Shown: positions 2 through 20,941 of the stretch, in pieces
Layout of the letters: the number at the start of each line of letters is the position of its first letter
Numbering within the stretch: position 1 is the stretch's first letter
IMG/VR virus record: IMGVR_UViG_3300048927_000255
Span: 1 to 42,596 of that record
DNA from: a virus
DNA length: 42,596 nt
Strand: one strand, 5' to 3'
Made by a program: the position numbers and the translations under genes
The notes under the pieces: model-generated
The model's database searches: none
What the model saw: only the letters and a program-made list of their open reading frames with translations
What the model was told of the DNA's origin: nothing

Positions 2-1039
2 GTCATGGTCAAGCAAGGCACCCCGGTCGAAGCCGTCATGGCCGCGATCTTCGGCGTCGTCATCGCCGGCTCTTTCGTTGAGATGGGCATCAGCCGCATC
101 CTGCCCTTCGTCAAACGCCTGATCACCCCGCTCGTCACCGGCATCGTCGTGCTGCTGATCGGCCTGACGCTCATCAAGGTCGGCCTGATCAGCATGGGCG
201 GCGGCTTCGGCGCCATGGCCAACGGCACCTTCGCCAGCGCAGAAAACCTGACGCTGTCGGGCCTGGTGCTGGGCACCATCATCCTGCTGAACCGCGTGCC
301 GGTCGTCTGGATCCGCAGCACCGCGCTCGTCCTGGCGTTGGCCGTCGGCTACATTGCCGCCGCCTCCATGGGCCGCCTGGACTTCACCGGCGCCCGCGAA
401 GCCGCGCTCTTCCAGATCCCCGTGCCGCTGCACTTCGGCCTGGGCTTCTCGTGGGCGCTGTTCGTGCCGATGCTGATCATCTACCTGGTCACGTCCCTGG
501 AAGCCATCGGCGACGTCACCGCCACCAGCAAGGTGTCCAAGCAGCCCGTCGAAGGCCCGCTGTGGATGCAGCGCATCAAGGGCGGCGTCCTGGTGAACGG
601 CGCGAATTCGCTCCTGGCCGGCGTGTTCAACACCTTCCCCAGCTCGGTCTTCGCGCAGAACAACGGCGTGATCCAGCTGACCGGCATCGCCAGCCGCCAC
701 GTCGGCGTGTGGATCGCCGGCATGCTGATCCTGCTGGGCCTGTTCCCGGGCGTGGCGGGCGTGCTGCAAGCCGTGCCGGAACCCGTCCTGGGCGGCGCCG
801 CCATGGTCATGTTCGGCGCCGTGGCCGCCTCCGGCATCAACATCCTGGCCGGCATCCACCTGGACCGCCGCGCCCTCCTGATCATCGCCGTATCCCTGGC
901 CCTGGGCCTGGGCGTGTCGCAAGTGCCGGAAATCCTGTCGCACCTGCCGCATGCGGTCAAAAGCGTGCTGGAGTCGGGCGTGGCCACCGGTGGCATTTGT
1001 GCCCTGGTGATGAACTGGTTCTTGCCCGAAAAGAAGTAA
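2..1039 (+). CDS. NCS2 xanthine/uracil-family nucleobase permease, 5' end missing
   Basis: Inner-membrane nucleobase:cation symporter of the NCS2 (NAT) family; it would import xanthine, uric acid or a related base with protons. The reading frame is open at the window edge, so the N-terminal membrane segments are missing; the first Met at base 5 is probably internal. The visible 345 residues are mostly hydrophobic helices. The TM8-type motif SLEAIGD is encoded at 494-514 and the NAT signature QNNGVIQLTG at 656-685, which matches Q-N-x-G-x4-T-[RKG]. The C-terminus is complete (TAA at 1037-1039). Family assignment is firm. The exact substrate is not: the QNNG form fits xanthine/urate better than uracil transporters. 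This is host DNA outside the prophage. Confidence 0.9.
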   Translation, partial: VMVKQGTPVEAVMAAIFGVVIAGSFVEMGISRILPFVKRLITPLVTGIVVLLIGLTLIKVGLISMGGGFGAMANGTFASAENLTLSGLVLGTIILLNRVPVVWIRSTALVLALAVGYIAAASMGRLDFTGAREAALFQIPVPLHFGLGFSWALFVPMLIIYLVTSLEAIGDVTATSKVSKQPVEGPLWMQRIKGGVLVNGANSLLAGVFNTFPSSVFAQNNGVIQLTGIASRHVGVWIAGMLILLGLFPGVAGVLQAVPEPVLGGAAMVMFGAVAASGINILAGIHLDRRALLIIAVSLALGLGVSQVPEILSHLPHAVKSVLESGVATGGICALVMNWFLPEKK

Positions 1040-1203: not shown

Positions 1204-1288
1204 GCCCGGGTGGTGAAATTGGTAGACGCAGGGGACTCAAAATCCCCCGCCGCAAGGCGTGCCGGTTCGATTCCGGCCCCGGGCACCA
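1204..1288 (+). tRNA. tRNA-Leu (anticodon CAA)
   Basis: Class II tRNA of 85 nt including an encoded CCA. Acceptor GCCCGGG (1204-1210) pairs with CCCGGGC (1278-1284), followed by discriminator A and CCA. The anticodon loop CTCAAAA gives anticodon CAA (reads UUG). A long variable arm is present, and the T-arm is CCGG-TTCGATT-CCGG. The gene is intact. Confidence 0.95.
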
Positions 1289-5602: not shown

Positions 5603-8600
5603 TTACCTCTGGAAAGTGAAAATCGCGATGCGCACATAGCCCTGGATCTGACCCGAACCGGGGCGCCCGATGTTAATGCCGATTGACGCCCAGCTCCCCG
5701 CACCAAGATACCCCCCGACCCAGCTAAACGTAGTGTTTAGGAAGGTCTTGTAGTTGGCGATGTTTTGCTCAACTGGGTAGGTTGGGTCAGCAATAAATGA
5801 CTTCTCGAACACAACCCCATCGCTACCGGTGTTGATAGTGACGTACTTTGTGCCAGATCCGGGGCTACCGGGATTGGAGCAATAGACGGAAATGAAATAC
5901 TGCGAATAGCCGCCTACGCCGGTGGGCGCTCCATGGGAGAAAAAGTTATTGCCGCTCCCGTTTGAGGATCCAATGGCCATTCCCTCATGCATGGAGTTAC
6001 CAGCCACCACGGCCCCGCCGGCGATGCGCAGGGTATCAATCTGCGCGACACCGATTTTTGCCGTCAGGATCTGCGCATCCCCGATCTTGGCGGTATGGAT
6101 TGAGCCATCCACGATGTTGGCCGTGCTGACTGCGGCATAGCCAATCTTGGCGTTGGTGATGGCGCCGTCCTGGATCTTGGCGTTGGTGATGGTCCCGTCC
6201 TGGATAAAGGCGGAGCGCAGGAAAGACTGCCCATTCACCACAGCAAAGACAGCCTGCTGCACGCCGCCCACTTGGCTCATCAGCGTAAATCGATCCGCCA
6301 CCATGGCGATGGTCGCTTGGACCGGAGTGCCGTTCCCGGCGGACTCGATCCCCACTCCGATACCGGCCAGGTATCGCGTGCCGTTCACGTCCTGGGCTAC
6401 CCGCACTGTCCAGTTGGTCGACACCTTTCCGTCCAGCGTCGCAATAGCGCTGCTGTGCGTTTCAACCGTGCCGCTGATTCCGCCGACGCGAACGTCCAGC
6501 CGCTCCACCGCGTCTGCCGTGGCCTGGTTGGCCGTGGTCAGCGTGCGGATGCTGTTGGCGTAGGTGGAGCGCGAAATGGAAACGCCGTAGCGACCTACCG
6601 AAACATAATCCAGATCGAACGAACCCGAGTTTGTACGCCCAAGTATCAACCAGCCCACAGAGGTGGCCGTATTGAAAACGGGGTGCGACGACAGGTCGAA
6701 ATCGATAACCTGCCAGGCTCGACTGGTCCCATCCACCGGCACATAGATTGGCGTTTGATTAAGTATCTGGTTGCCAGTCGGCGCGAAAAACAGCGGGAAC
6801 GTGGATTCGTTGTAGCCGTTAAGGAAACGCACCCGGATGCGAACGATAGGGAAAACTCGCGCGTTGTAGAACTGCGCCGGTTGCATAACAACCTGCGTGC
6901 GGCCCAGCCCAGACTGCCCGGCGACCTGGGCGGATCGGATGTACATGGGCGAATCGTTAACCCATGTCACCGTCGACACGCCCGCGCTCATCGGGGACCA
7001 GCCGTCCACGGAGGCCTGGAAATCCCACGCCAGCTCAGGGTCGAAACCTTCGGCCGTTTCAGACTCCAGGGTGTTGATCCGAACCGCCAGCGCCTGGTCA
7101 GCATTGGAGCGGGCCAGCTCCTCGTTTCGGATGGCCGTGGAGTTGTTGTCGGTCTTGGTGTTCAGGTTTCGGATCTCGGTGGCGGTGGCCTCCCGATCCG
7201 TTACCTGAACCTGGCGGATGTTGACGATTTCCGCGCTGTTCAGATCCGCGCGCGCGCTCACGCGGCTGATACTGCGGGCACCGCTTGCCGTGGCCTCCGC
7301 GAGTTGCGTAACCATTGCATCGGTGTCCGCCGTCATGGCCCGAACTTCGACCATGCGCAGCGCCATATCGGTGGTCGCCGTTTCCAGGGTGGCCACACGG
7401 GTGGACGTGGTGGCGGTCGTCTGCTCCAGCGTGCTGGTGCGCTGCGCCAGCGATGCCGTGGTCTGCTCCAGCGTGCCGATCTTGGACGCATTGCCGTCTG
7501 CCTTCGTTTCGACGGTCGTAAGCCGCTGGGCCTGTGTGGCCTGCGTTTGCTCAATGGTCTGGATCTTGCTGGCCTGCTGGCCGCTGGCAGTTTCGAGAGT
7601 GCCGGTGCGGGTTGCAAGGGAGGTGGTCGTCTGCTCCAGCGTCTGGATCTTGCTTCCCTGCTGCCCCTGCGTAGTCTCCAAGGTGGCGACTCGCTGCGCC
7701 GTCCCGGCGTTAACCGTTTCGATAGTTTCGATGGACGACTGCAGGTCGCCCTGTCGCACTTGTAGGCGGCGGATGGTGTTTACGTTGGTCGCCGTAACCT
7801 TGGCCATTTCGGACAGACCGGCGTCCGCGTCTGTCGCCGTAGCGCGCAGTTCGGTAATTCGAAGCGCGTAATCGCTGCTGGCTTGCTCCAGGTTCGTGAT
7901 CTTGCTGGTGTGATCAGCGCTGGTTTGCTCCAGCGTGCTGGTGCGCGTCACCAAGCTGGCGGTGGTTTGCTCCAGCGTGCTGATCTTTCCGCCTTGCGCC
8001 CCCGCGGTGGTTTCGAGGGTGGTGGTGCGTTGCGCCAGGCCAGCGGTCGTACTTTCGAGCGTCTGGATCTTGCTGGCGCTGTCCGCGGCCTTCGTCTCCA
8101 CCGCCGTCAGGCGCTGGCCCTGAGCCGCCGTCGTGGTCTCCAGCGTGGAAATCTTGGATCCCTGCGCAGCAGTGGTGGTTTCCAAGGTCGCAATTTTCGT
8201 CCCCTGGGCGGCCTGGACGATCTTTGCCTCCGTTAGCTGAGTGCTGATGCCGGCCACAGCTTCTGCCAGGCTGGAATAGTCACCGATCTTTTCCCAGGAT
8301 GCCGTATTACTCGGCAGCACGTTGGTGTTGGCCTTCTTGGCGCGATATAGCCCCCCATTCCACGACACGATATCGTCCGTCACATAGCCAACGGTGGACG
8401 CCCACGGCTTGATGCCCTCAATCTCCGCAAGCTGTGCTTGCAGTGTGTCGATCTGCGATTGCAATACCTGCTCGGCATCGTCCACGGCCGCGATTCGGTC
8501 CTTCACCTCCTGCTGAAGCTGGTCCGATAGGCCGGTAAGCCCATCCTCGCGCGCCTTCGCCTCGGCCTCCAGCGCATCCGCCAGCGCCTTGTCGGCTTCG

Positions 8601-11320
8601 ATCCGCGCCAGCACCTCCAGGCGGATCTGCTCGGCCTGCGCGATCAGTTGCTGCGTATGCTGGGCCAGGCTAGTGCCCTGCTCGTCCACCACACCGCCCA
8701 GGTTGGTCAGCGCCGTATCCAGATCCTCAATATCCTGGAGCAACTGCTTGCCCACGTCAGAGCTAACCACCTCGTCCTTGATCGCCTGCAGGTAATCCTT
8801 GGCGTTGGTGTTGGTGATGCCGTGGACACCGTGCGCGTTGACGGACGGGTAAAACTCGCCCTTCTCGCCCAGGGAATCAACCAGGCGGATCCAGAACCAG
8901 TATTCGGTGCCAGCCGGCAGTCCGGAAATCGAGAAGGCATCGCCCGGATAGGAAATCTCCGACAGCAACGTGGCCGCGCTATGGTTGGGGCTGGAAGCAA
9001 ACCAGAGCTCGGCCCGGCGCACGGGACTGATGCTTTCCCGGAAACCCCATCGCGCCGTAATTCCATACAGTTCATCGTCCGACACCCTTAGGAAAGAAAC
9101 CTGCGGCGGCGGCTCAAGATTCCCCGCAAGAGTCGTCATTTCGGATACGGTCCAGGAACTGCGGACTTCCAGCGCGCTGATGGCCTGCGCCCGCGCCTGG
9201 TATCGGCCGGCCCGGATCCCCGGAATCTCGGCAGATTCGAGAGTGGTTTCCGGAAGCCCGATCCAGTCGGAATCATCGCGGCGCCATTGCACGGCAAATC
9301 CGCGAGACTGCTTACTGCCCACCCATTCGATGCGCATGACGTGCTGCGCCGCGTTCTGATCGACCCCCGTATACGATGACACGCGGACATTGGATGGCGG
9401 CGCGGTTTGAAGCGACGGAATGATTGTGTTGTCTGGCGGATCCAGCTTCGTGTCGTAGTCCACGGCCTCCCGCTTGCCGGGCACCTCAATGACAGCCGTA
9501 ATCTCGGCTTCCATCGGGCCGGTGCGCGCCACGCCCTGGACGTTAAAGAGGAACGGTTGAAGGTCATCCGCGATGACGCACCAGACGGCCTCATCATTGG
9601 GCTTTTCGCTGTAGGGCTGCACCGTAATAATGGTGTCATCGTCAGCCAGCACGACGGCCGACACGCGACGCTCCTCCACGCGCCCGTCCGGCATGTTGAC
9701 CACCAGAGTATCGCCAGGCTTCACGCGCGCCCTGCGGTCCAGCACCAGCCGCGTGGCGTCGATTGCCTGCCGGACGCGGCCGGAAATCATAGCGCCAGCC
9801 AGGATATTGTCGGCCACCCGGATCACTTCGCCCGGCTTTACCAGGGCGTAATCCAAGCCCACCTTGAACTTGACTAGGCGGCCCTGCTCCTGGCTCGTAA
9901 GAACCGTCCACTTAGCCATTCGCTTTGCCTGGCCAGGGCTGATGCACATAAATGCTGTGCTTTCGGAGTCGCGCACGCCATACCGCGCAACGCCGCGCCG
10001 GTCGGTGTAGGACACGACTTTCTGGCGCCCGAAATCGTCGGGCTGGTTGTAGGACACGCGCGCCACGTTGAACCGCGTTTTGCGAGGGGTGCCCGAATAC
10101 TGGAACTCGCCCACGATGTTGGCCGGGCTGTAGGTGTAGACCGGCGCGGCTGGCATGTCGGCCCGCGCGATCACCGTACCATTGGCTGCATACAGCATCC
10201 CGCGAAACACGCTGGCAATGTCTTGCAGCACGCGGTAGGCATCTTCGCGCTTCATGATCTGGCCGACTGCGCGGAAACGCGGCTCCACGCCGCCCAGGCC
10301 GTCCGGCACGAGCTCATCGCAGTACTGCGCGATCTTGTACAGCTCCCAGCGGTCCACCATTCCAAGCTTGATACGCTCACCCAGGCCGAATATGTCGTTC
10401 GTGACCATGTCCAGCAGCACCCATGCCGGATTCGCGCACACTGACAGCTTGAATGTGCCATCCCAGACGCCGCTGTAAACCCGGTTTACCGCGTCATAGT
10501 TGGAAGGAACCCGGATCATTCGCCCCTTACCCCGCACGGCGCGCGTGGGGATACTGGAGAACAAACTTGCGGGGATCTTGTACCCCACCATGGCGATCAT
10601 CGGATATCGCAGCTTGGTGTCTACCACCTCGGTATAGGCATCCACATAGATATTGGATGCGATGGTGCTATCGCCCGTGTTATCGGCGGAGGTGCGGCGA
10701 ACACGAAGCGTCCAATTTGACGTGCCGGGAGGCAGGTTGATCCGGTGGGTTCTGGTGTAGCGCTGGGTCGTCTTGCCCCGCATGGAGGCCACCACAACGG
10801 GATCCCAGTTTCCGGTCCCCACGCGCAACTCAACCACGTAATCAATGTAGTAGCCGCCCAGATCACCGTTTTTCGGGTTTTGCTGGGTCAGCCTGTCCGT
10901 GGAAAGCGTGATGCGCAGCGCGTCGATTTCCGGGGTAGTGACGAGCTGGGTCCAGGGCTGGGCCGCTTTGACCTGCACGCCCACCGCAATGGTGTTCTCC
11001 GCGCCAGGGAAGCCAGGGATCGGATCCTGGTCCTGCGTTCCGTAACGGACGTGAACCTCCACGCCAGGGAAATTCTCCTCCCCGTTCTCGCCTACTACCG
11101 GCGTCCCGTTGAAAAAGATGTTCCGCAGCACCTGCGCCGGGGTGTCACCCAGGGATCCCATGGGACCCACGTTGATCGCATCTAGCAGGCGCGCGTACTG
11201 AATGGAATGCAGGCTGTCCGGCGATTCCTTCGCTACGCGCCCGCCACCGCCACTTTTTCCGCCATAGCCGCGAATACGGGGCCGCGAGAATTGCAGCTCC
11301 ATGCTTTTGGTTTCGCTCAT
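5603..11320 (-). CDS. J: tail-tip host-specificity protein J (TipJ)
   Basis: 1905 residues; lambda J has about 1130. It starts MSETKSMELQFSRP, overlapping the I stop as TAATG. The N-terminus (KSGGGGRVAKESPDSLHS, then NFPGVEVHVRYGTQDQDPIPGF) matches the J-family tail-hub start. Fibronectin-III-like modules lie at about 640-835. A coiled-coil region at 870-965 is followed by a CBM5/12-like module (IKPWASTVGYVTDDIVSWNGG). Then come 14-residue repeats (1038-1370), a beta-sandwich with DLDYVSVGRYG at its end (about 1450-1590), a DUF1983-like region, TNAKIQDG-type repeats and a tip domain. J forms the central tip fibre and selects the receptor. The extra 770 residues lie mainly in the repeat and sandwich parts. 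Confidence 0.93.
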   Translation of the reverse strand: MSETKSMELQFSRPRIRGYGGKSGGGGRVAKESPDSLHSIQYARLLDAINVGPMGSLGDTPAQVLRNIFFNGTPVVGENGEENFPGVEVHVRYGTQDQDPIPGFPGAENTIAVGVQVKAAQPWTQLVTTPEIDALRITLSTDRLTQQNPKNGDLGGYYIDYVVELRVGTGNWDPVVVASMRGKTTQRYTRTHRINLPPGTSNWTLRVRRTSADNTGDSTIASNIYVDAYTEVVDTKLRYPMIAMVGYKIPASLFSSIPTRAVRGKGRMIRVPSNYDAVNRVYSGVWDGTFKLSVCANPAWVLLDMVTNDIFGLGERIKLGMVDRWELYKIAQYCDELVPDGLGGVEPRFRAVGQIMKREDAYRVLQDIASVFRGMLYAANGTVIARADMPAAPVYTYSPANIVGEFQYSGTPRKTRFNVARVSYNQPDDFGRQKVVSYTDRRGVARYGVRDSESTAFMCISPGQAKRMAKWTVLTSQEQGRLVKFKVGLDYALVKPGEVIRVADNILAGAMISGRVRQAIDATRLVLDRRARVKPGDTLVVNMPDGRVEERRVSAVVLADDDTIITVQPYSEKPNDEAVWCVIADDLQPFLFNVQGVARTGPMEAEITAVIEVPGKREAVDYDTKLDPPDNTIIPSLQTAPPSNVRVSSYTGVDQNAAQHVMRIEWVGSKQSRGFAVQWRRDDSDWIGLPETTLESAEIPGIRAGRYQARAQAISALEVRSSWTVSEMTTLAGNLEPPPQVSFLRVSDDELYGITARWGFRESISPVRRAELWFASSPNHSAATLLSEISYPGDAFSISGLPAGTEYWFWIRLVDSLGEKGEFYPSVNAHGVHGITNTNAKDYLQAIKDEVVSSDVGKQLLQDIEDLDTALTNLGGVVDEQGTSLAQHTQQLIAQAEQIRLEVLARIEADKALADALEAEAKAREDGLTGLSDQLQQEVKDRIAAVDDAEQVLQSQIDTLQAQLAEIEGIKPWASTVGYVTDDIVSWNGGLYRAKKANTNVLPSNTASWEKIGDYSSLAEAVAGISTQLTEAKIVQAAQGTKIATLETTTAAQGSKISTLETTTAAQGQRLTAVETKAADSASKIQTLESTTAGLAQRTTTLETTAGAQGGKISTLEQTTASLVTRTSTLEQTSADHTSKITNLEQASSDYALRITELRATATDADAGLSEMAKVTATNVNTIRRLQVRQGDLQSSIETIETVNAGTAQRVATLETTQGQQGSKIQTLEQTTTSLATRTGTLETASGQQASKIQTIEQTQATQAQRLTTVETKADGNASKIGTLEQTTASLAQRTSTLEQTTATTSTRVATLETATTDMALRMVEVRAMTADTDAMVTQLAEATASGARSISRVSARADLNSAEIVNIRQVQVTDREATATEIRNLNTKTDNNSTAIRNEELARSNADQALAVRINTLESETAEGFDPELAWDFQASVDGWSPMSAGVSTVTWVNDSPMYIRSAQVAGQSGLGRTQVVMQPAQFYNARVFPIVRIRVRFLNGYNESTFPLFFAPTGNQILNQTPIYVPVDGTSRAWQVIDFDLSSHPVFNTATSVGWLILGRTNSGSFDLDYVSVGRYGVSISRSTYANSIRTLTTANQATADAVERLDVRVGGISGTVETHSSAIATLDGKVSTNWTVRVAQDVNGTRYLAGIGVGIESAGNGTPVQATIAMVADRFTLMSQVGGVQQAVFAVVNGQSFLRSAFIQDGTITNAKIQDGAITNAKIGYAAVSTANIVDGSIHTAKIGDAQILTAKIGVAQIDTLRIAGGAVVAGNSMHEGMAIGSSNGSGNNFFSHGAPTGVGGYSQYFISVYCSNPGSPGSGTKYVTINTGSDGVVFEKSFIADPTYPVEQNIANYKTFLNTTFSWVGGYLGAGSWASIGINIGRPGSGQIQGYVRIAIFTFQR
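7210..8210 (-). repeat. two-block array of 14-residue coiled-coil repeats in J
   Basis: Units such as STLETTTAAQGSKI, STLEQTTASLVTRT and GTLEQTTASLAQRT recur every 42 bp. Two blocks of about eight units (roughly 8210-7735 and 7690-7230) each close with a similar segment (DYALRITELRATATDADAG and DMALRMVEVRAMTADTDAM), so the whole block looks duplicated. The 14-residue period equals two heptads of a trimeric coiled coil. Confidence 0.85.
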
Positions 11321-11961
11321 TACTGCTGGTCCTCGGAATAGATTCCCTGGGAAAGCACCGCCGAACCCATCCAGACAAACCCATCGGGGTCGCTGTAGCC
11401 CACGGGGATGGGGTTGCCTTGGGCGTCCATATTCACCGGCCCATTGAACCCGTATGACGGCCGATTCTCCGGACTGTCTTGGGTGGAAAGGCCTGGCGGT
11501 TGCGGGCCTAGGGCCTGTGCTGCGCCGCCCAACACCAGAGTTGCGCCCATCCAAGCGGCCGCGCCTATCAGGCCCTTCGCCGCGAAGGCGGCCCCGAACC
11601 CGTTTGCAGCTATGGCCGCTGCGCCTATCAGCACCGCGCCCAGGACGATCTGGAACAGGCCACCGCGCTTGTTGCCGCGCACAATCATCGCGATTCGGAT
11701 AGGCTCGTCAGGGTCCAGCCAATCTCCCAGGCGCTCTTCCCCCAGCCGGCGGGTGCCGTGCAGGCAGGCAAAGCCCTGGCGCGCGGCTGCGGCCTTCACC
11801 ATGAATTCCCGAAAGCCGGGGATCAAGACGCTGAGCGCGTGGATTGCCTCTTGCGTGGAAGTAACAGCCAGCCTGAACTCCCGACCGAAGAGCGCTCGCA
11901 GCGGCCCGTACAGCAGCACGGTGCGCACTTCCGGGTCATCAAGGGTTGCGGACATTGCCAT
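11320..11961 (-). CDS. tail assembly protein I
   Basis: 213 residues, lambda gpI-like. The N-terminal ubiquitin-like half (VLLYGPLRALFGREFRLAV, then HALSVLIPGFREFM) is followed by a hydrophobic Ala/Gly-rich segment (about 108-150) and a Pro-rich C-terminus. The order K-I-J is that of lambda. It is needed for tail-tip assembly and is not found in mature lambda virions. Start ATG 11961 has GGAGAA upstream; the gene starts right after the K stop and overlaps J by one base. Confidence 0.88.
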   Translation of the reverse strand: MAMSATLDDPEVRTVLLYGPLRALFGREFRLAVTSTQEAIHALSVLIPGFREFMVKAAAARQGFACLHGTRRLGEERLGDWLDPDEPIRIAMIVRGNKRGGLFQIVLGAVLIGAAAIAANGFGAAFAAKGLIGAAAWMGATLVLGGAAQALGPQPPGLSTQDSPENRPSYGFNGPVNMDAQGNPIPVGYSDPDGFVWMGSAVLSQGIYSEDQQ

Positions 11962-12759
11962 TTACTTCTCCAGGGATTTGTGCCGCGCTATGGCATGCGT
12001 GCAGTGCGCCCACATGCCGCCATAAACATCCACGGAGGACTTGCGGCCATGCAGGTGGTGCAGGATTCGGGCGCTTCGCATAAAAGGCTCGTCGTGGCCG
12101 GGGACAGGCTCCTCGCCCACGTAGACGGCGGCGTGATTCGGCACCGAAGATCCGATCTGCATGATGATCATGTCGCCAGGCTGCAACATCTCGCCGTCGG
12201 CCAGCACGCGCCAGCCATCCGCGGCCAGGTTGGCCATATACAGGTCCAGCTCCGGAGTCTTTTTCCACCAGTCATCGTCCCGCTCATGGTGCGGCAGCGT
12301 GACGCCGCGGGCTCGGTCGAACCAGTCCACAATCAGGCCATAGCAATCCAGAGTGCCGTGGTGAAACGAGCGGCCCACCAGCGGCGCCGGCGGCGCATCC
12401 GGCGCGATGCCCACAAGAGGAGCGCAGCGCAGGGCGCCGGCGTCGTCGCGGTGGACCGGCTGGATATACCAGGGCACGCCGCTGATATTGCAGCTTGCCG
12501 TGTCGCCCTCAGTGGCACCATCAGGGCCATTCGGGTGGGAGTGGACTATGGCCAGCAGCGTGCCGCGATCTTCGGCGGCAGCCATAAATTCAGGCCCGAT
12601 TTCAAAGCTGTCCAGCGCGGCGTCACCGCGGGCCTCGTTGTCGGCTGGAATGTAAACCTCGGCCATGGTGTCCGTCAGGCGGATTACCACGCCGCAGGAC
12701 TCGCGGGGATAGCAGACCAGTGCATGGCGTTGAATGTCGGAAACCGTGGTCTTTTTCAT
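11962..12759 (-). CDS. tail-tip peptidase K (JAMM + NlpC/P60 domains)
   Basis: 265 residues, two domains. Residues 1-115 form a JAMM/MPN metalloprotease with Glu20 (PRESCG) and H73-S-H75-P...T-x-x-D86 as zinc ligands (Thr replaces the usual Ser). Residues 130-265 form an NlpC/P60 cysteine peptidase with Cys139 (TLDCYG), His209 (PNHAAVYVG) and a His cluster near 234-237. Lambda gpK has the same plan and is needed for tail-tip assembly; the NlpC part may open peptidoglycan during DNA entry. It is flanked by L and I as in lambda. Confidence 0.9.
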   Translation of the reverse strand: MKKTTVSDIQRHALVCYPRESCGVVIRLTDTMAEVYIPADNEARGDAALDSFEIGPEFMAAAEDRGTLLAIVHSHPNGPDGATEGDTASCNISGVPWYIQPVHRDDAGALRCAPLVGIAPDAPPAPLVGRSFHHGTLDCYGLIVDWFDRARGVTLPHHERDDDWWKKTPELDLYMANLAADGWRVLADGEMLQPGDMIIMQIGSSVPNHAAVYVGEEPVPGHDEPFMRSARILHHLHGRKSSVDVYGGMWAHCTHAIARHKSLEK

Positions 12760-13509
12760 TCATGCCCTCAATCGGTCAGCCGCCGGGAAAGCCATGAAAT
12801 TCATGTACCCCCCGGGGAACCCGCCAGGGTTCGCGTTCAAGCGAGCCCGACAAGAGGAAAGAAGCCCAGAGCACGAATCGCGCGCCGGGTCGTTGGTGGG
12901 GTTGTTGTCGTCGTCGAACATGGCAGCGCCAGAGTAGGCGCAGTAAGGGCCGCGATAGCCCCCTGTCCGAGTCCACCGACAGACGTCCGTCTGCACGATC
13001 AGGCCAGGCAACTGCACGCCCTCCGCATCCAGCACGGTGGCGAGCTGGAACACGACGACGTCTGGACCCTCGGATTGCTTAAGCTCAATCTCCCAAACGT
13101 CGGGTGGCAATTCTTGCGTCGGGTCTGCCTCTGGGTTGCCATCGGGAAAATTGACCGCGTCCAGGAATCGGCCGAACGTCCGTCGCATGGTGACGCGCGC
13201 GTCCAGCAAGTCCTCGAATTGCATGCAGAGCGCCGAAATGACGCCTGGTAGCGGCTCCCCCTGTGCGTCGCTGCCAATGTTCCCGACTGTCAGCACTGGC
13301 GACGGTGGCGCCCCTTCGGAGTTGGTTTCCAGCCCGTCCACTTGGATGGGCCAGGGACCGTATTCGTGCCCCTGCCAGGTGATCACATCAAGCTGCATGT
13401 AGCCGTGAAACCGCAGGTGTTCGCCACCGAACGGCGTAAGATCCAGCTCGAATAAATCCACCAGTTCGCCCATGTCCAGGCGCTGGATATGCGAGTAGAT
13501 TTTTTTCAT
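12760..13509 (-). CDS. minor tail protein L (Fe-S cluster type)
   Basis: 249 residues. The C-terminal half carries four Cys in the gpL pattern, C177-RW..., C190 (GPYC), C213 (DSC) and C220 (SSC), which in lambda gpL bind an iron-sulfur cluster. The N-terminal half is a beta-rich tail-hub domain (FELDLTPFGGEHLRFHGY). It sits before K as in lambda and belongs to the distal tail hub. The start overlaps the upstream gene by four bases. Confidence 0.85.
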   Translation of the reverse strand: MKKIYSHIQRLDMGELVDLFELDLTPFGGEHLRFHGYMQLDVITWQGHEYGPWPIQVDGLETNSEGAPPSPVLTVGNIGSDAQGEPLPGVISALCMQFEDLLDARVTMRRTFGRFLDAVNFPDGNPEADPTQELPPDVWEIELKQSEGPDVVVFQLATVLDAEGVQLPGLIVQTDVCRWTRTGGYRGPYCAYSGAAMFDDDNNPTNDPARDSCSGLLSSCRARLNANPGGFPGGYMNFMAFPAADRLRA

Positions 13510-13853
13510 GCTTCACTGTCCCATCCCGGGATGATCCACGACTGGGGCTCGCGCACGAGGCGGAAAGCCTGCCAGCGGTCATCCGCCATATCTGCGTCCA
13601 CGATGAGCGCATACTGGGTTTTCGACCACTCCAGCACCTCGTACATGCCTTCGTTTTCGATCTCCTCAAACACGCCCGTTTTTCGATAGCCTCGGCGCGC
13701 CCCAAAAACCAGCGTCCGGGCCGGCCATTCGACGCCGAATCCCGGGTTAACTTCCGTCAAAAGGCCCGTCTCCATGCCGATGCGAACAATCTCCGCATCG
13801 TCGTTGCACTCCACCAGCAAGATCTGGTTTTTAGGGTTTGGGAAAGCGTTCAT
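13506..13853 (-). CDS. uncharacterised small tail-region protein
   Basis: 115 residues, starting MNAFPNPKNQILLVECND. No family recognised; the C-terminal half has several Trp and Tyr (YEVLEWSKTQYALI, FRLVREPQSWIIPGW) and looks like a compact beta domain. Coupled at both ends by four-base overlaps, so it is made with the tail hub genes. Its place before L is where lambda has M, but the M homologue here is the gene at 15846-16205, so this one is an insertion relative to lambda. Confidence 0.7.
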   Translation of the reverse strand: MNAFPNPKNQILLVECNDDAEIVRIGMETGLLTEVNPGFGVEWPARTLVFGARRGYRKTGVFEEIENEGMYEVLEWSKTQYALIVDADMADDRWQAFRLVREPQSWIIPGWDSEA

Positions 13854-15202
13854 ACGCCTGTTGCCTCCTTTAGTTGATCGTCAGTAGACAGGCGCCGGTA
13901 CATGCGGGCCTCGTAGATCCAGCCGGTAAGGATGTACGAATCCGGGTTCATCATCGAACCCAGCAAAAACCGGTTGCTAGAAAGCCCGCTCGTGAACCCC
14001 GCGAAGGTCGGGAACGTAGTTACGGGCACCGCGTCCGCCCGCGCTGCAAGGTTGCATTCGCGGAAGTCCAGCGGATCGTTTCGCCAAGTGGCGCAATGCA
14101 CGTTTCGAGGCGATGAGGGGAAAATCCGCCCATTGGTCCGGGTGGTCCCGGAGTGGGTTGGCGTAGCGGTGTAGTACGTTCGGATAATCATGGCCGGGTT
14201 GGCCCCTTCCCCCGTCAGGGCCAAGCTGACGTAAGGCGCTGACGCCGGCACGCGGTCGGTGCCGGCCACGCCCACCGCTGCCGTTAGGAAAAGGCATTGA
14301 GCCGTGTAATCGGCCCACAGCGAATAGCCCTGCCCCGCAACGGGCGAATTGAAAAAATCTGCGGGGAAGCTTGCGCTAATGCCGCGCTCATCGCCCCGCA
14401 CTACCGCCGCTCCTTTGGTCGGTATGTAAGAGGTCGGGAACCCCAGCGCTTCGAGCTGGAATCCACCGAAAAGGAACTTCCCGGCCCGATTCCCGCCCGG
14501 CCAAAGTATCGGGGGATAGGATGCCACGGTGGTGGTGCAGGTCGCCGTTACGTAGATTCGTTTCCACCCGTTCGGGTACGTCTCCATGCCAACAATGGTC
14601 TCGGACGCATTAAGCGCGCCTCCCACCACCTGGCCCGTCGCCCCGACGAATTGAACGCTTTGATTCGATCCGAACGCCTCGGACGTGAGAACCAGGGGAA
14701 TGTCAATCGCCTGGTCCCCCAGCGACTTGATGAATACCGAACCCGTGTAACGCCTCCCCGAGACATACGCCATTGCCCTGGGGTTGCCATGCGGGTAAAT
14801 GTAGGTTGACCCGGCCGGGCTGTAGTCCATCATCGCGCATCGCTCAGAAGGCAACAGGAAGTCAGCAGCGTCGAATGTCGTAGTGGCCAGCCCATTGGCG
14901 GATCCGTTCCAGGCGCGGGGAGGCGCCACCGTGAGCAGCGGATTGGAGAAAACGACCATGTTTTCCGACGCAGCGTCACGGCGCAACCCCCAGCGCAGCC
15001 TGTCGTGATCGAACCCGATTCGGGCCTGGCCTGGCAGCGCCACATACATGCGATCTTGATCGCAATACGTGCGCGGTCCGATGATGCTGGGATCCGGGCC
15101 GGTCACGGTTGGCGGGAGATTCCCCGACGAAAAATCTAGCCGGAATTCCGCCGCAATGGCGGGCTCAAGGTCAGAAACCTGACCGAATGCACTTGTGGTC
15201 AT
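13850..15202 (-). CDS. tail spike/fibre-like protein with carbohydrate-binding fold
   Basis: 450 residues. An early segment (QARIGFDHDRLRWGLRRDAA, then SENMVVFSNPL) fits the pattern PRFDHDP...GLLVEE.RTNLL common to phage spike-fibre proteins. The following part (YTGSVFIKSLG, NGWKRIYVTATC, GKFLFGGFQLEALGFPTSYI) is a jelly-roll carbohydrate-binding-like module, and the C-terminal 150 residues resemble a LamG/concanavalin fold ending WIYEARMYRRLS. Probably a side decoration of the tail that binds surface glycans. It is located between tail genes M and L, where lambda has nothing. Confidence 0.65.
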   Translation of the reverse strand: MTTSAFGQVSDLEPAIAAEFRLDFSSGNLPPTVTGPDPSIIGPRTYCDQDRMYVALPGQARIGFDHDRLRWGLRRDAASENMVVFSNPLLTVAPPRAWNGSANGLATTTFDAADFLLPSERCAMMDYSPAGSTYIYPHGNPRAMAYVSGRRYTGSVFIKSLGDQAIDIPLVLTSEAFGSNQSVQFVGATGQVVGGALNASETIVGMETYPNGWKRIYVTATCTTTVASYPPILWPGGNRAGKFLFGGFQLEALGFPTSYIPTKGAAVVRGDERGISASFPADFFNSPVAGQGYSLWADYTAQCLFLTAAVGVAGTDRVPASAPYVSLALTGEGANPAMIIRTYYTATPTHSGTTRTNGRIFPSSPRNVHCATWRNDPLDFRECNLAARADAVPVTTFPTFAGFTSGLSSNRFLLGSMMNPDSYILTGWIYEARMYRRLSTDDQLKEATGV

Positions 15203-16207: not shown

Positions 16208-19200
16208 TTATCTCCGGCCGCTTTGAGCCCGTAGCTGGTTGTAGGAAATGCCACCAAAGCCCCAGCTTTTGGCAATTTGCTGGTCGATCGTTGCCACAAT
16301 GCTGTTTGCCAGCGCTCCCGCCGCCCCCTCGTCGTTCTCTCGGCTTTCCTCTCTAGTTCCGTCCCGATGCACAACCACGGAGACGCTGACGTTGGGAGCG
16401 GAGCCGCCGCCGAGTCGGGATGTTGCCGGCGCAAGGCCAGCCGCGCCTACAAAGCCGCCTGACGAGAACCCTCGCAATTGCTTGCGCATTTTGTCCAGGA
16501 CTGACGGCCCTCCGGCTGCCCGGACGGAGTCCTGGTCAAAGACGTACTCGCCTCGGTGAACGATCCCAGCTGGCTCATACTTCCCGCCAGGCCCGGTGAA
16601 GCCGCCCTCGTCCCATCCCGCGATGCCGGGGTTATTGACTGCAGGCCCCATCGAAACCGAGCTTGATGCAGAGATCGAACTTGCCCCGGCGCCCAGGACG
16701 CCGACCAAACTCCCAACCATCCCGACAACTGCTTGACGAGTGGCAATTCGAGCAAGGTCAGCAAGGATCGATGCCGCAAACTCTTTGAACTTGAGCTTGC
16801 CAGTCGTTGCGAAGTTGACGAGGGCGTCTTCCATGCCCTTGAAGGCATTGGTAAACACCCCTTGCGCCTGCTGCGCCACGTTGCCCGCCTGCGCCTGATA
16901 GTCGGCAAACGACTCGGTAAAGCCGTTTCTCCAGTTGCTATTGAGCGAATCAATTTGCGCGTAGTAGGAGCGCTGGTCCTCCAGGGCGCCATTCAACGAC
17001 TCCCGGATCTTCCCTTGAGCAATCTGGTATTGCTCCGAGCCCAGCTGATCCTTAGGCGTCGCCTTCGCCAGCTGATCCTCGTAGCGCCGGTACTCCTGCC
17101 GAATCGAGTTTTCGGCTTCCGCGCGCTCTCGGGCCTGTTGGCCCATACCGACCGTGGACAGTTGTCGGTCGTACTGCTCCCGACGTGATTGCCCGGCCGA
17201 CGCCATGGCCTGCTGGATCTGAGCGGAGCGCTCTTCCAGCTTGATCAGCTCCTGCTTGGCGACCAACTCCTTTGCCAAGCCTTCGTTTTTTTCTAGCTGC
17301 GCACGGATCGCGTCTTGATTTGCCAGCAAGCTGCGCTGGTCCGCCGTCAGAATCGCCTTGCCCTTCAGGTCGGCAATCTGCTGTTCGAACTCAACACGCG
17401 TTTTGCCTGCGTCAGTGAGCTTCTTCTCGGCTGCAAGCTGTGCGCTAAGCGATGCCTCGCGCTCTCGCAGGTCTGCCAACATCCTGACCCCAGCGCCGTC
17501 CGTAACGGCGGCACCCTTCGGGTCTTTGTACTTCTCGTTGATCTTAGCGATGCGCTTTTGAAGTGCTTCCTCGGTCTCCCCGAGTGCGCGGGACGCCTCA
17601 GTTACCTGGGCGATCTCTTGATCACGGATTTCCTTTCTGGATCTGGTTTCTCGGTCGATCTGGTTGAGCAACGCTTGGGCACGGGTTTTCCTGTCTTCCG
17701 CTGCCTGCCCTTCTGCACGATCAAGCTCGGCGCCAGCATTCAACTGCGCAGCTGACGCCTCATTGACGAAGCGCCCAAGCTGCGAACGATAGAAATACCA
17801 TTCGGACGATCCATTGCTTGCTTTCCCTAGGGCATCGCTGTAGTAGTCGATGTCCTTTTGAATGTCCCCGATAGATCGATCGCTGCCCAGATTCTTCATG
17901 GCGGACCAGGCGTCCTTCGCCTTGGTCTTCAGGTCATCCCACATCCTCTGCAGCGGACCCATCTGGACGATGATTCGATCTGCTGCGCTCTTGACTGCAT
18001 CCGCATATGTGGCCTGTGCCAAAGCGGCCGCCTGCTGTGATCTACCCTCTAGCTCAAGTGCCGCCACTTGCTTGTAAACGGCCGCCGTAAGGAAATGGTA
18101 TTGCTCGTTCAGCTTCAGCAGCGTGGCGCTGGGAGCCTCCGCAAGGCGCGCAAATTCGCCAACCAGGTCATCCACGCTTCGCGCGCCGGTCTTGCTCATC
18201 AGCGCGGTAGCCGCCGAAACCTTCTCCAACTCCGCGCTGGCAACTTTGCCGGAGTTAACAAGCTGTACAACGACCTCCGCGGCCTTACCTTGGCTGACCC
18301 CCACGCCCGCGATATCACGCGACATGTCCTTGAGTTGTCCGCTGGTCTTTCCGACGGCATTCCCAGTGAGCGTTAGGGCAGTCTCGAAGGCGCGAGACTC
18401 ACTAGCGCCCTGGTACATCGCGACGGAAAATGCGCCGACCGTCGCGGCCACGCCTCCTATCGCCAACGAAAACGGGGTGATCATGCCCAGCAAGGCCCGG
18501 AACATCGGACCAATCCCGCCGAAGCTGTCTTTCAACTGCCCGCCTTGCTGAATCAAGATCAAAAAGGGATTTTGTCCACCGGCAACTTGGGTAGCGATGT
18601 CGGTCATCTGCGCTGGAACCATCCGCAGGGCTGCAGCAGTCTGGCGCGCCGATACGCCAGTGCCGTCCAAGTTTTTGTTGACCTGGGCGAGCCGCGAGAT
18701 TAGCGGAGCGGCTCGGTCCCCAACGCCCAGCTGTGCCGCGCGATATTCCAACAGCTGGCGGGCAGTTAAACCGGCCGTTTCAGCCTGCTCGCGCAGGCCG
18801 GCGATGAATCTGTCTCCCTGTGCCGACGCCTGCGCGCTGGAGCGCGCCAGAGCGGCCTCTGAGGCATCCAAACGCTTAATGGCACCGGAATATTGCTCCG
18901 CAGTCAGTCGACCCTGCGCCCACAGAGAAACTAGCTTTTCCGTCTGAGCCTGAATTGCGGTTTGCGAACCGGCCCCGCGCTCAATCGCCGAAAGAGCCGA
19001 GTTCACCTCATTGATGTCGCGGGTCAACTCCTGGAATCCACGGTTCTGACTTGACGTCGTCCCCAGTGGGTTGGTGCGAACGCCACCAGCGGCTGTAGCA
19101 AGCTCACGCTCAGCCGCTGCCGTCGCACGCGCCTCAACCGCTTGCCGGTGCAAGGCTTCAGCGCGTTCAATAGCCCCGGCTGCAAGGGCCTTGACGCGGG

Positions 19201-19624
19201 CAGCGGCAGCAGCCTCAGACTCAGCCAACTGCACACCGGAAGATGCGACGGTGCGTTGCGCGACTGACATGCCACCCATGGCGGCTTCCGCTTCGCGGAT
19301 CTTCGCCACAAGCGGCTCAAAGACCTCCCGAGGAAGGCCGGCGGCGGTGGCGCGGTACTCAGCGACCTCGGCGCGTGTTCGGCCCAGCGTGGCCGCCATC
19401 CGTTCAAGCGACTGCCTTGCACGCAGTTGCGAGGACGTGAGTTTTTGCGACGCTCCCTCCGCAGCCGACCCGATGCCGGTCAAACTGCCGGCGGCCTTGA
19501 CAGAGGCTGCTGCCGCCGTCGCCGCCATGGCGTTTACTTCCTGGCCGATCTCGCGGACTTCGGATTTAACGCTGCTGCCGTCGGCCGCGAATTGCAGTGT
19601 GGCTTTACCGATAACATCAGACAT
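16208..19624 (-). CDS. tail tape-measure protein H
   Basis: 1138 residues. Helical, Ala/Glu/Arg-rich with long coiled coils. A hydrophobic segment at about 378-408 (MITPFSLAIGGVAATVGAF) and the C-terminal block KFKEFAASILADLARIATRQ (about 943-962) match the lambda gpH type. It sets tail length: at roughly 1.5 angstrom per residue the tail would be about 170 nm (estimate). It directly follows the G/T chaperone genes, as in lambda. The last 150 residues are glycine-rich, with GGFTGPGGKYEPAGIVHRGE, a common terminal motif of this class. Confidence 0.93.
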   Translation of the reverse strand: MSDVIGKATLQFAADGSSVKSEVREIGQEVNAMAATAAAASVKAAGSLTGIGSAAEGASQKLTSSQLRARQSLERMAATLGRTRAEVAEYRATAAGLPREVFEPLVAKIREAEAAMGGMSVAQRTVASSGVQLAESEAAAAARVKALAAGAIERAEALHRQAVEARATAAAERELATAAGGVRTNPLGTTSSQNRGFQELTRDINEVNSALSAIERGAGSQTAIQAQTEKLVSLWAQGRLTAEQYSGAIKRLDASEAALARSSAQASAQGDRFIAGLREQAETAGLTARQLLEYRAAQLGVGDRAAPLISRLAQVNKNLDGTGVSARQTAAALRMVPAQMTDIATQVAGGQNPFLILIQQGGQLKDSFGGIGPMFRALLGMITPFSLAIGGVAATVGAFSVAMYQGASESRAFETALTLTGNAVGKTSGQLKDMSRDIAGVGVSQGKAAEVVVQLVNSGKVASAELEKVSAATALMSKTGARSVDDLVGEFARLAEAPSATLLKLNEQYHFLTAAVYKQVAALELEGRSQQAAALAQATYADAVKSAADRIIVQMGPLQRMWDDLKTKAKDAWSAMKNLGSDRSIGDIQKDIDYYSDALGKASNGSSEWYFYRSQLGRFVNEASAAQLNAGAELDRAEGQAAEDRKTRAQALLNQIDRETRSRKEIRDQEIAQVTEASRALGETEEALQKRIAKINEKYKDPKGAAVTDGAGVRMLADLREREASLSAQLAAEKKLTDAGKTRVEFEQQIADLKGKAILTADQRSLLANQDAIRAQLEKNEGLAKELVAKQELIKLEERSAQIQQAMASAGQSRREQYDRQLSTVGMGQQARERAEAENSIRQEYRRYEDQLAKATPKDQLGSEQYQIAQGKIRESLNGALEDQRSYYAQIDSLNSNWRNGFTESFADYQAQAGNVAQQAQGVFTNAFKGMEDALVNFATTGKLKFKEFAASILADLARIATRQAVVGMVGSLVGVLGAGASSISASSSVSMGPAVNNPGIAGWDEGGFTGPGGKYEPAGIVHRGEYVFDQDSVRAAGGPSVLDKMRKQLRGFSSGGFVGAAGLAPATSRLGGGSAPNVSVSVVVHRDGTREESRENDEGAAGALANSIVATIDQQIAKSWGFGGISYNQLRAQSGRR

Positions 19625-19625
19625 A

Positions 19626-19937
19626 TCAATCCTTGTGCATTTCTTCCAGCGCCGCTAGTTCGCACACGCGCAAGGAATCCCATACCCGTGGCCACTCGTC
19701 ACGCCGAACACCCATCATGCGAAGCACGAAGGGCAAGGCTCCGTAGTCCAGGCCCACTGGGCCGGTTGCTCCCTCACGCCACTGCGTGCCCATGGAGCAA
19801 AAGACATTGAACGCGCGCTCGTTTTCCGGCAGCACTTGGACGACCGGCGGGCGGAGGTCGTCCACCGTAAGGCCCAGCCAGTCGTACTGATCGGCGGGCG
19901 GCTCCCGCCAGTACAGGCGCCGCACCGCCGCGATCAG
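19626..19937 (-). CDS. T extension of the tail assembly chaperone, made by -1 frameshift
   Basis: A 103-codon open region in the -1 frame of the G-like gene, continuing LIAAVRRLYWREPPADQYDW. It has no plausible start codon or ribosome site of its own; the first ATG lies deep inside, near 19792. It joins the G frame at the slippery heptamer 19937-19943, so it is read as the C-terminal half of a 217-residue GT fusion. In lambda, gpGT at a few percent of gpG recruits the tail tube to the tape measure. The spacing between tail tube and tape-measure genes is the same here. Confidence 0.85.
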   Translation of the reverse strand: MIAAVRRLYWREPPADQYDWLGLTVDDLRPPVVQVLPENERAFNVFCSMGTQWREGATGPVGLDYGALPFVLRMMGVRRDEWPRVWDSLRVCELAALEEMHKD

Positions 19938-20278
19938 TTTCCCCGGCGGAACTCGGTCAGCTCGTACAGGTACTTGTCCAAGATCGCGCGGGTTGCCCGC
20001 CCGTGATAGTTCCGTGCCAACAGCGCGAAGTTTTCGGGGGAAAACTCGACCTCGACGCCCGTCCAGCCAGCGACGATGTCCAGCAGCCATTCGGCGTCCG
20101 TCTTCGCCTTGGCGCCGGCGGCCAGAAAGTCATTAAGCTGCGTCTCGTCCTTATGACGGAAGATCAACGGAAGCTTGGCCGGCTCACCGTCGCCCGGCAC
20201 AGGGATATCCACCACAGCGCTGAAAGTCGCGGCCGGCTTCAGGGAGAAAAGGCCCGGGGCAATCGTGTTTTTGCTCAT
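19934..20278 (-). CDS. tail assembly chaperone G
   Basis: 114 residues, starting MSKNTIAPGLFSLKP. Soluble and acidic, with LPLIFRHKDETQLNDFLAAG and the C-terminal helix GRATRAILDKYLYELTEFRR. It sits between the tail tube and tape-measure genes and ends on the slippery site, which identifies it as gpG by synteny. It coats the tape-measure protein before tube polymerisation and is absent from the virion in lambda. Confidence 0.82.
   Translation of the reverse strand: MSKNTIAPGLFSLKPAATFSAVVDIPVPGDGEPAKLPLIFRHKDETQLNDFLAAGAKAKTDAEWLLDIVAGWTGVEVEFSPENFALLARNYHGRATRAILDKYLYELTEFRRGN
19937..19943 (-). promoter_or_regulatory. -1 ribosomal frameshift slippery site GGGAAAC
   Basis: On the minus strand the last sense codons of the G-like gene are CGG GGA AAC followed by TGA (19934-19936). 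Read as G-GGA-AAC this is a canonical X-XXY-YYZ heptamer; lambda G uses GGGAAAG. Slipping back one base gives GGG AAA CTG and opens the T frame. Confidence 0.88.
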
Positions 20279-20290
20279 GTGTCAGACTCC

Positions 20291-20941
20291 TTAGGCGCTG
20301 TAGCGGGTGGGCGCGCCGGTCAGCGACAACGTCACCTGCAGCGACATGACTTCGTTCTTGGTGGTGGTGGGCATTTCCCCGAACGACACGTAGGCGCCGA
20401 AGTAGATGGCCGCGCCCCCGGGAAGCTGGAAACGAATCGCGCGCGGCCGGCGGTCGTCGTTAGCGGCTTTCAGGACGGCGTAGTGCGGCAGCTTGTCATC
20501 GTCGGCCACTGTGAGATTGACCGACCGCGCCGAGCGGATAGTCGGAATCTGGCGTTCGTCGCCGGTGTCTTCGAGGAACGAGAAATTTGCAAATTGCTGT
20601 TCGCCGCCGGAGCTGGCCGACTCCAGGATTTGCGAGATCTGTACCCAGTCTTCGACCTTGCGCAGCGTCCCCACGCCTGCACCGGGCGGGAAGCGAGCCG
20701 CGTCCAGGGTATTGACGCCGCCAAGCGTCACGCTGTCAGCGGCGACGGCGGTGGCCCGCGCGATGCGACCATCCAGCCCGGCCCAGCCCGAGGCGACCTC
20801 AATGACGTCGTTGATGGCGAGGTTGTTGTTTGCAGCAGCCAGCACCGCCGCAATGGCATTGCTGATTTCGGTAAACGGCACAGCGTCACCGTATGCCGAC
20901 GCGATCGAGAAAGATGCGCCGTTAGGAAGTTTCACGCCCAT
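20291..20941 (-). CDS. major tail tube protein
   Basis: 216 residues starting MGVKLPNGASFSIASAYGD, with TGGAG upstream. The repeated beta pattern includes INDVIEVASGWAGLDGRIAR, FANFSFLEDTGDERQIPT and a C-terminal AIYFGAYVSFGEMPTTTKNE, typical of lambda gpV/TTP-type proteins that stack as hexamer rings. It is preceded by a strong terminator (20957-20979) that would limit its expression unless antitermination is active. Confidence 0.85.
   Translation of the reverse strand: MGVKLPNGASFSIASAYGDAVPFTEISNAIAAVLAAANNNLAINDVIEVASGWAGLDGRIARATAVAADSVTLGGVNTLDAARFPPGAGVGTLRKVEDWVQISQILESASSGGEQQFANFSFLEDTGDERQIPTIRSARSVNLTVADDDKLPHYAVLKAANDDRRPRAIRFQLPGGAAIYFGAYVSFGEMPTTTKNEVMSLQVTLSLTGAPTRYSA

Follow-up and report, generated by a model that had tools for sequence, protein, structure and literature searches.

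A −1 slip in the genes for tail assembly is a well-known phage trick. In the gpG/gpGT system of phage λ, the shift occurs at a heptamer of the form G_GGA_AAN near the end of G and joins a T domain to gpG, with the tail tube and tape measure genes as flanks, and the locus described here resembles λ in all these respects; it differs from λ in that 15 nt separate the λ heptamer, GGGAAAG, from the G stop codon that follows, and in that the λ T family is PF06223 whereas the T frame studied here belongs to DUF1799. The product ratio of lambda-like systems is about 30:1 (PMC5009743), and 6–7% frameshifting has been measured for two HK97-like tail chaperone genes (PMC3711429). According to PRFect (PMC10885494), heptamer and stop codon are on average 26 nt apart in its training phages and 36 nt apart in the Xu et al. 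set. The same protein families and gene order as at our locus are found in T1 (CPTT1_038/039), OzMSK, HK639, PS-1 and YMC11/02/R656; T1, OzMSK and HK639 carry AAAAAAC directly before the G stop, and PS-1 and R656 have GGGAAAC there, as here. T1 and other DUF1799-type siphophages share 31–45% identity with the T domain of this phage, and the identity of the stop codon and the X base of the heptamer vary among them. Eukaryotic viruses with a stop directly 3' of a slippery heptamer have also been cited (PMC4373837), in which the ribosomes are eukaryotic and the proteins unrelated.

The DNA analysed is a stretch of 42,596 nucleotides from IMG/VR virus record IMGVR_UViG_3300048927_000255 (hereafter the window), in which the site and its tail genes lie on the minus strand (Table 1). 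Reading of the sequence and its open reading frames (ORFs) on that strand confirmed all the coordinates, the phase and the codon count given in a preliminary description: the G frame runs from an ATG at 20278 to CGG GGA AAC TGA, with GGGAAAC at 19943–19937, and the −1 frame proceeds as CTG (19937) ATC GCG to a TGA at 19628–19626. GGGAAAC occurs twice in the window when both strands are counted, and of the 85 window ORFs of at least 150 codons, none ends with a heptamer against its stop.

Table 1. Features of the window around the G/T locus and at its left end.
Feature	Position	Strand	Basis
Slippery heptamer G_GGA_AAC	19937..19943	−	Sequence; kept in relatives
G gene, tail assembly chaperone gpG, 114 codons	19934..20278	−	PF08748 Phage_TAC_4, phrog_569
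TGA stop of G, abutting the heptamer	19934..19936	−	Sequence; contact in 89/103 non-redundant loci
Shine-Dalgarno AAGGAG of G, 8 nt ahead of ATG	20287..20292	−	Sequence
T frame entered by −1 shift, 103 sense codons and TGA	19626..19937	−	PF08809 DUF1799, phrog_680
GTG, sole early start-like codon in T frame, not conserved	19923..19925	−	Sequence, relatives
Predicted stem-loop, candidate stimulator, GC-rich	19892..19930	−	Folding z
Tail tube (major tail) protein gene, upstream neighbour, λ V position	20291..20941	−	PF08813 Phage_tail_3 (E 2e-59), phrog_584
Tape measure protein gene, downstream neighbour, λ H position	16208..19624	−	PF06791 TMP_2, PF09718 Tape_meas_lam_C
Minor tail protein L	12760–13509	−	
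NlpC/P60-JAB protein	11962–12759	−	
Tip attachment protein J	5603–11554	−	
tRNA-Leu (CAA)	1204–1288		
Xanthine/uracil permease gene, partial	5–1039		PF00860

The order tail tube, G, T, tape measure corresponds to V-G-T-H of λ; the start of the tail tube gene (ATG at 20941) was judged from its ORF, and the tape measure protein has 1138 residues. Beyond the tape measure gene on the minus strand come lambda-like genes for the tail tip (window 5603–13853; J, NlpC/P60-JAB and L in Table 1), and a 450-codon ORF located between minor tail proteins (13850–15202, minus strand) had no Pfam match at E 0.001. The window opens with a partial permease gene and a tRNA-Leu, which suggests that the window is probably a prophage integrated near tRNA-Leu and that positions 1–1288 are probably the host side of the integration site.

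The product of G matched PF08748 (Phage_TAC_4) with E 5.8e-16 and 59.3 bits, against a curated cut-off of 21.1, and that of the −1 frame matched PF08809 (DUF1799) with E 5.5e-22 and 78.2 bits, against a cut-off of 26. Furthermore, PHROG 17368, a profile of 213 positions, was matched by G at 18–102 and by T at 112–210, and thus a single family holds both halves joined. The T frame had no match to the λ Phage_tail_T family PF06223, DUF1799 alone being reported at E up to 0.1; by analogy, it would resemble λ T in its working while being filed outside that family. Neither G nor T had a meaningful match by sequence among solved structures. Between the genes for the tail tube and the tape measure lie two overlapping ORFs offset by −1, the overlap contains a conserved in-phase heptamer, and the second frame lacks a conserved start, all as in frameshifts of the gpG/gpGT type (Xu, Hendrix and Duda 2004). 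The earlier reading of the site as a −1 programmed frameshift giving a G-T chaperone fusion is strongly supported by comparison, namely by the joined PHROG, the conserved heptamer and the conserved −1 frame, and we regard it as close to certain that the site is a −1 programmed ribosomal frameshift of the λ gpG/gpGT kind. The frameshift is of the already known λ/T1 type and ordinary for its family.

Since scans of viral and genome contigs with single sequences yielded one locus each, relatives were gathered through the family or an alignment of the T domain, or through protein similarity; the heptamer was never a criterion, and loci fetched by the motif itself were excluded from the tally. A G-frame ORF with 60 codons or more, in −1 relation, was present in 137 of 139 loci, the window counted, and 120 of those 137 had an XXXAAAZ heptamer touching the stop. 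Thinning of the 139 loci at 85% identity left 103 non-redundant ones, the window among them, and every one of these had an in-phase XXXAAAZ heptamer: AAAAAAC in 67, GGGAAAC in 33, GGGAAAT in 2 and AAAAAAG in 1. The heptamer touches the G stop in 89 of the 103, that is, 88 identified by script and locus L085 (also included among the 67), at which the script halted because of a TAG in frame inside G (1367–1369 of that locus), with AAAAAACTGA at the usual place. This TAG is either a nonsense change or a sequencing error. The heptamer lies 3–105 nt ahead of the stop in the remaining 14 loci; nine of the 103 have the same kind of heptamer with the stop 3–9 nt further on, and the five most distant of the 14 (at least 18 nt) may include chance matches, a reading that is likewise possible in seven loci whose nearest heptamer is 18–105 nt from the stop or whose G ORF is unclear. 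By comparison, heptamer and stop are in contact in about 5 of approximately 2,320 other ORF ends in the fetched DNA, a set from which motif-fetched loci and two G genes that the filter had overlooked were removed; the contact is therefore far beyond chance. In an alignment of eight close relatives, the longest invariant block of DNA spans the heptamer and the stop. Within the stop-adjacent set, GGA accounts for 31 of 31 glycine codons at the site, a figure conditioned on the heptamer, versus 36 of 499 elsewhere in G. A search of plasmids found no near DNA relative.

The position of the heptamer against the stop had been called unusual, which holds with respect to λ but not within the DUF1799 family, T1 included, where contact is the rule; elsewhere it is uncommon. 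Among 19 resolved loci with a lambda-type T (PF06223), the distance is 0 in three and 3–60 nt in fourteen; the other two lack a heptamer. In the three with contact (L189, L194 and L208), AAAAAAC touches the G stop, and the layout therefore arose in the PF06223 family too. From the codon usage of the T frame, stop contact would be expected in 14% of loci as against the 89 of 103 observed (binomial P about 1e-60, relatedness ignored), and the rare leucine codon CTA, which creates TAA or TAG, is used at the site in 30 of 86 loci compared with 37 of 685 CTN codons elsewhere in T. Judging from these sequence counts, stop adjacency looks to be under selection, the reason for it aside.

What the adjacent stop does is a separate matter, and we find it equally easy to accept and to doubt that the frameshift is real while the contact has no effect on its efficiency, the stop ending gpG where the two domains meet and thereby making it the N-terminal part of gpGT. 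This neutral role is favored by the nine relatives with the stop 3–9 nt further on, by the 0 to 60 nt found in lambda-type T genes, which means that contact is not needed for frameshifting, and by the base after TGA, which shows no bias to the weak termination context TGAC (9/57). The strongly kept adjacency, estimated with relatedness ignored, and the excess of CTA argue against neutrality, both as signs of selection rather than of its reason, as does published work in which a stop after a slippery site alters efficiency: placed directly after the HIV-1 site, it decreased frameshifting in a bacterial system, in which extra RF2 abolished it, and reduced it by about 70% in COS-7 cells (PMC4373837). 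These HIV-1 substitutions point away from the idea, contained in the preliminary description, that pausing at the stop may boost efficiency, which is hence not supported, although the opposite is cited in a review for pea enation mosaic virus, in which frameshifting benefits from a stop located 3 nt downstream (PMC5009743). Release-factor competition that holds gpGT low would suit a ratio of about 30:1, and the stop may simply end gpG. A tentative and in our judgement rather doubtful proposal is that, throughout the TAC_4/DUF1799 branch, the adjacent stop is a working part of the frameshift signal, the release factor competing with tandem slippage when the stop occupies the A site and the G:GT ratio following the release-factor level.

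The second half of the fusion is conserved at the protein level from its first codons, as judged by alignment of the relatives. With the K of AAA numbered 1, the −1 frame has Ala at 5 in 64 of 88 loci, Ala at 6 in 75 and Tyr at 10 in 60; K-L opens it in all 88 junctions, since the site and the stop dictate those residues. The T frame had been described as lacking a start of its own, and among the relatives no conserved start was indeed found; this phage does have a possible one, a GTG at the fifth codon, inside the predicted stem-loop. That T is a separate gene, re-initiated at this GTG after G ends at TGA and made without fusion, would agree with the presence of the codon, with the independent ribosome binding site noted for the T product in the OzMSK record and with the records that annotate T alone. 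The start is, however, not conserved, for which reason we reject it as very improbable: in L004, the closest relative with 76% identity in T, CGGGGAAACTGA is unchanged and the GTG is lost, ATG is found among the first five T-frame codons in none of the 88 loci, and ATG, GTG or TTG is found there in 6 and among the first ten codons in 21. Moreover, the residues ahead of the GTG are conserved, re-initiation would not require conservation of the heptamer, and the GTG would be buried in a stable predicted stem. Joining of the frames by transcriptional slippage, in which RNA polymerase gains or loses a base in a run, is favored by the six or more consecutive A of 67 of the 103 loci, where polymerase can slip, but has a negligible probability because the family switches between GGGAAAC and AAAAAAC, because no long homopolymer is present in the GGGAAAC or GGGAAAT used by this phage and one-third of the relatives, and because the exact X_XXY_YYZ phase is conserved, as fits tandem tRNA slippage.

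Regarding stimulators of the ribosomal −1 frameshift, the predicted stem-loop begins 6 nt past the heptamer, within the 5–9 nt spacing described for stimulatory structures (PMC8211752), and it folds with a z of −3.4 relative to dinucleotide shuffles and of −3.3 when synonymous codons are permuted. Averaged over 88 relatives, the folding z reaches its minimum just past the heptamer (−1.04 at offset 0 versus about −0.2 upstream), and by codon permutation the mean is −0.83 just past the heptamer versus −0.30 in a control stretch of T (P 0.014 between them). Covariation among the relatives gave no support for one shared stem-loop. According to these folding models, a stimulator is likely present in this phage. 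A Shine-Dalgarno-like stimulator about 12 nt upstream is absent here. Among the relatives, 20 of 88 loci have GGAG, GAGG or AGGA at 5–16 nt ahead of the heptamer versus 2–5 in shifted spans, an enrichment that may be a by-product of the coded residues; an internal Shine-Dalgarno stimulator is possible in some of them.

Under the reading of a programmed ribosomal frameshift, most ribosomes would read G and terminate at TGA to give gpG (114 aa), and a minority would slip one base back on G_GGA_AAC, the Gly and Asn tRNAs re-pairing on GGG and AAA. Translation would then continue through CTG ATC GCG and produce gpGT (217 aa), with the expected junction EFRRGN-LIAAVRR. The GC-rich stem-loop probably stimulates the slip, as its modelled fold suggests, and a release factor would probably compete with slippage after translocation, the stop being the very next codon, and so help to keep gpGT scarce. 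By homology, the G part would bind the tape measure protein and the T part would recruit the tail tube protein, and both gpG and gpGT would be absent from the virion.

These results settle that the two frames should be annotated as G and GT instead of as G and T. The preliminary statement that two separate genes would be wrong applies to T, which several records give as its own gene and whose frame belongs to GT, but gpG alone is still expected to be made as a genuine, major product. Three records, AP014684 (L005), MN585195 (L007) and KT968831 (L008), list a shortened T as a gene in its own right, and the HK639 record HM208537 (L006) lacks T; the stop-adjacent heptamer is present in all four loci. 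The T1 and OzMSK records annotate the joined frameshift product. This suggests that many DUF1799 genes with a public entry of their own encode the latter half of a frameshift protein. The loci in which heptamer and stop touch, found across the family, constitute a natural set of bacterial sites for the effect of a next-codon stop on −1 frameshifting, with the relatives in which the stop lies 3–9 nt further on as natural controls. If the stop were part of the signal, tail assembly in these phages would respond to the release-factor level.
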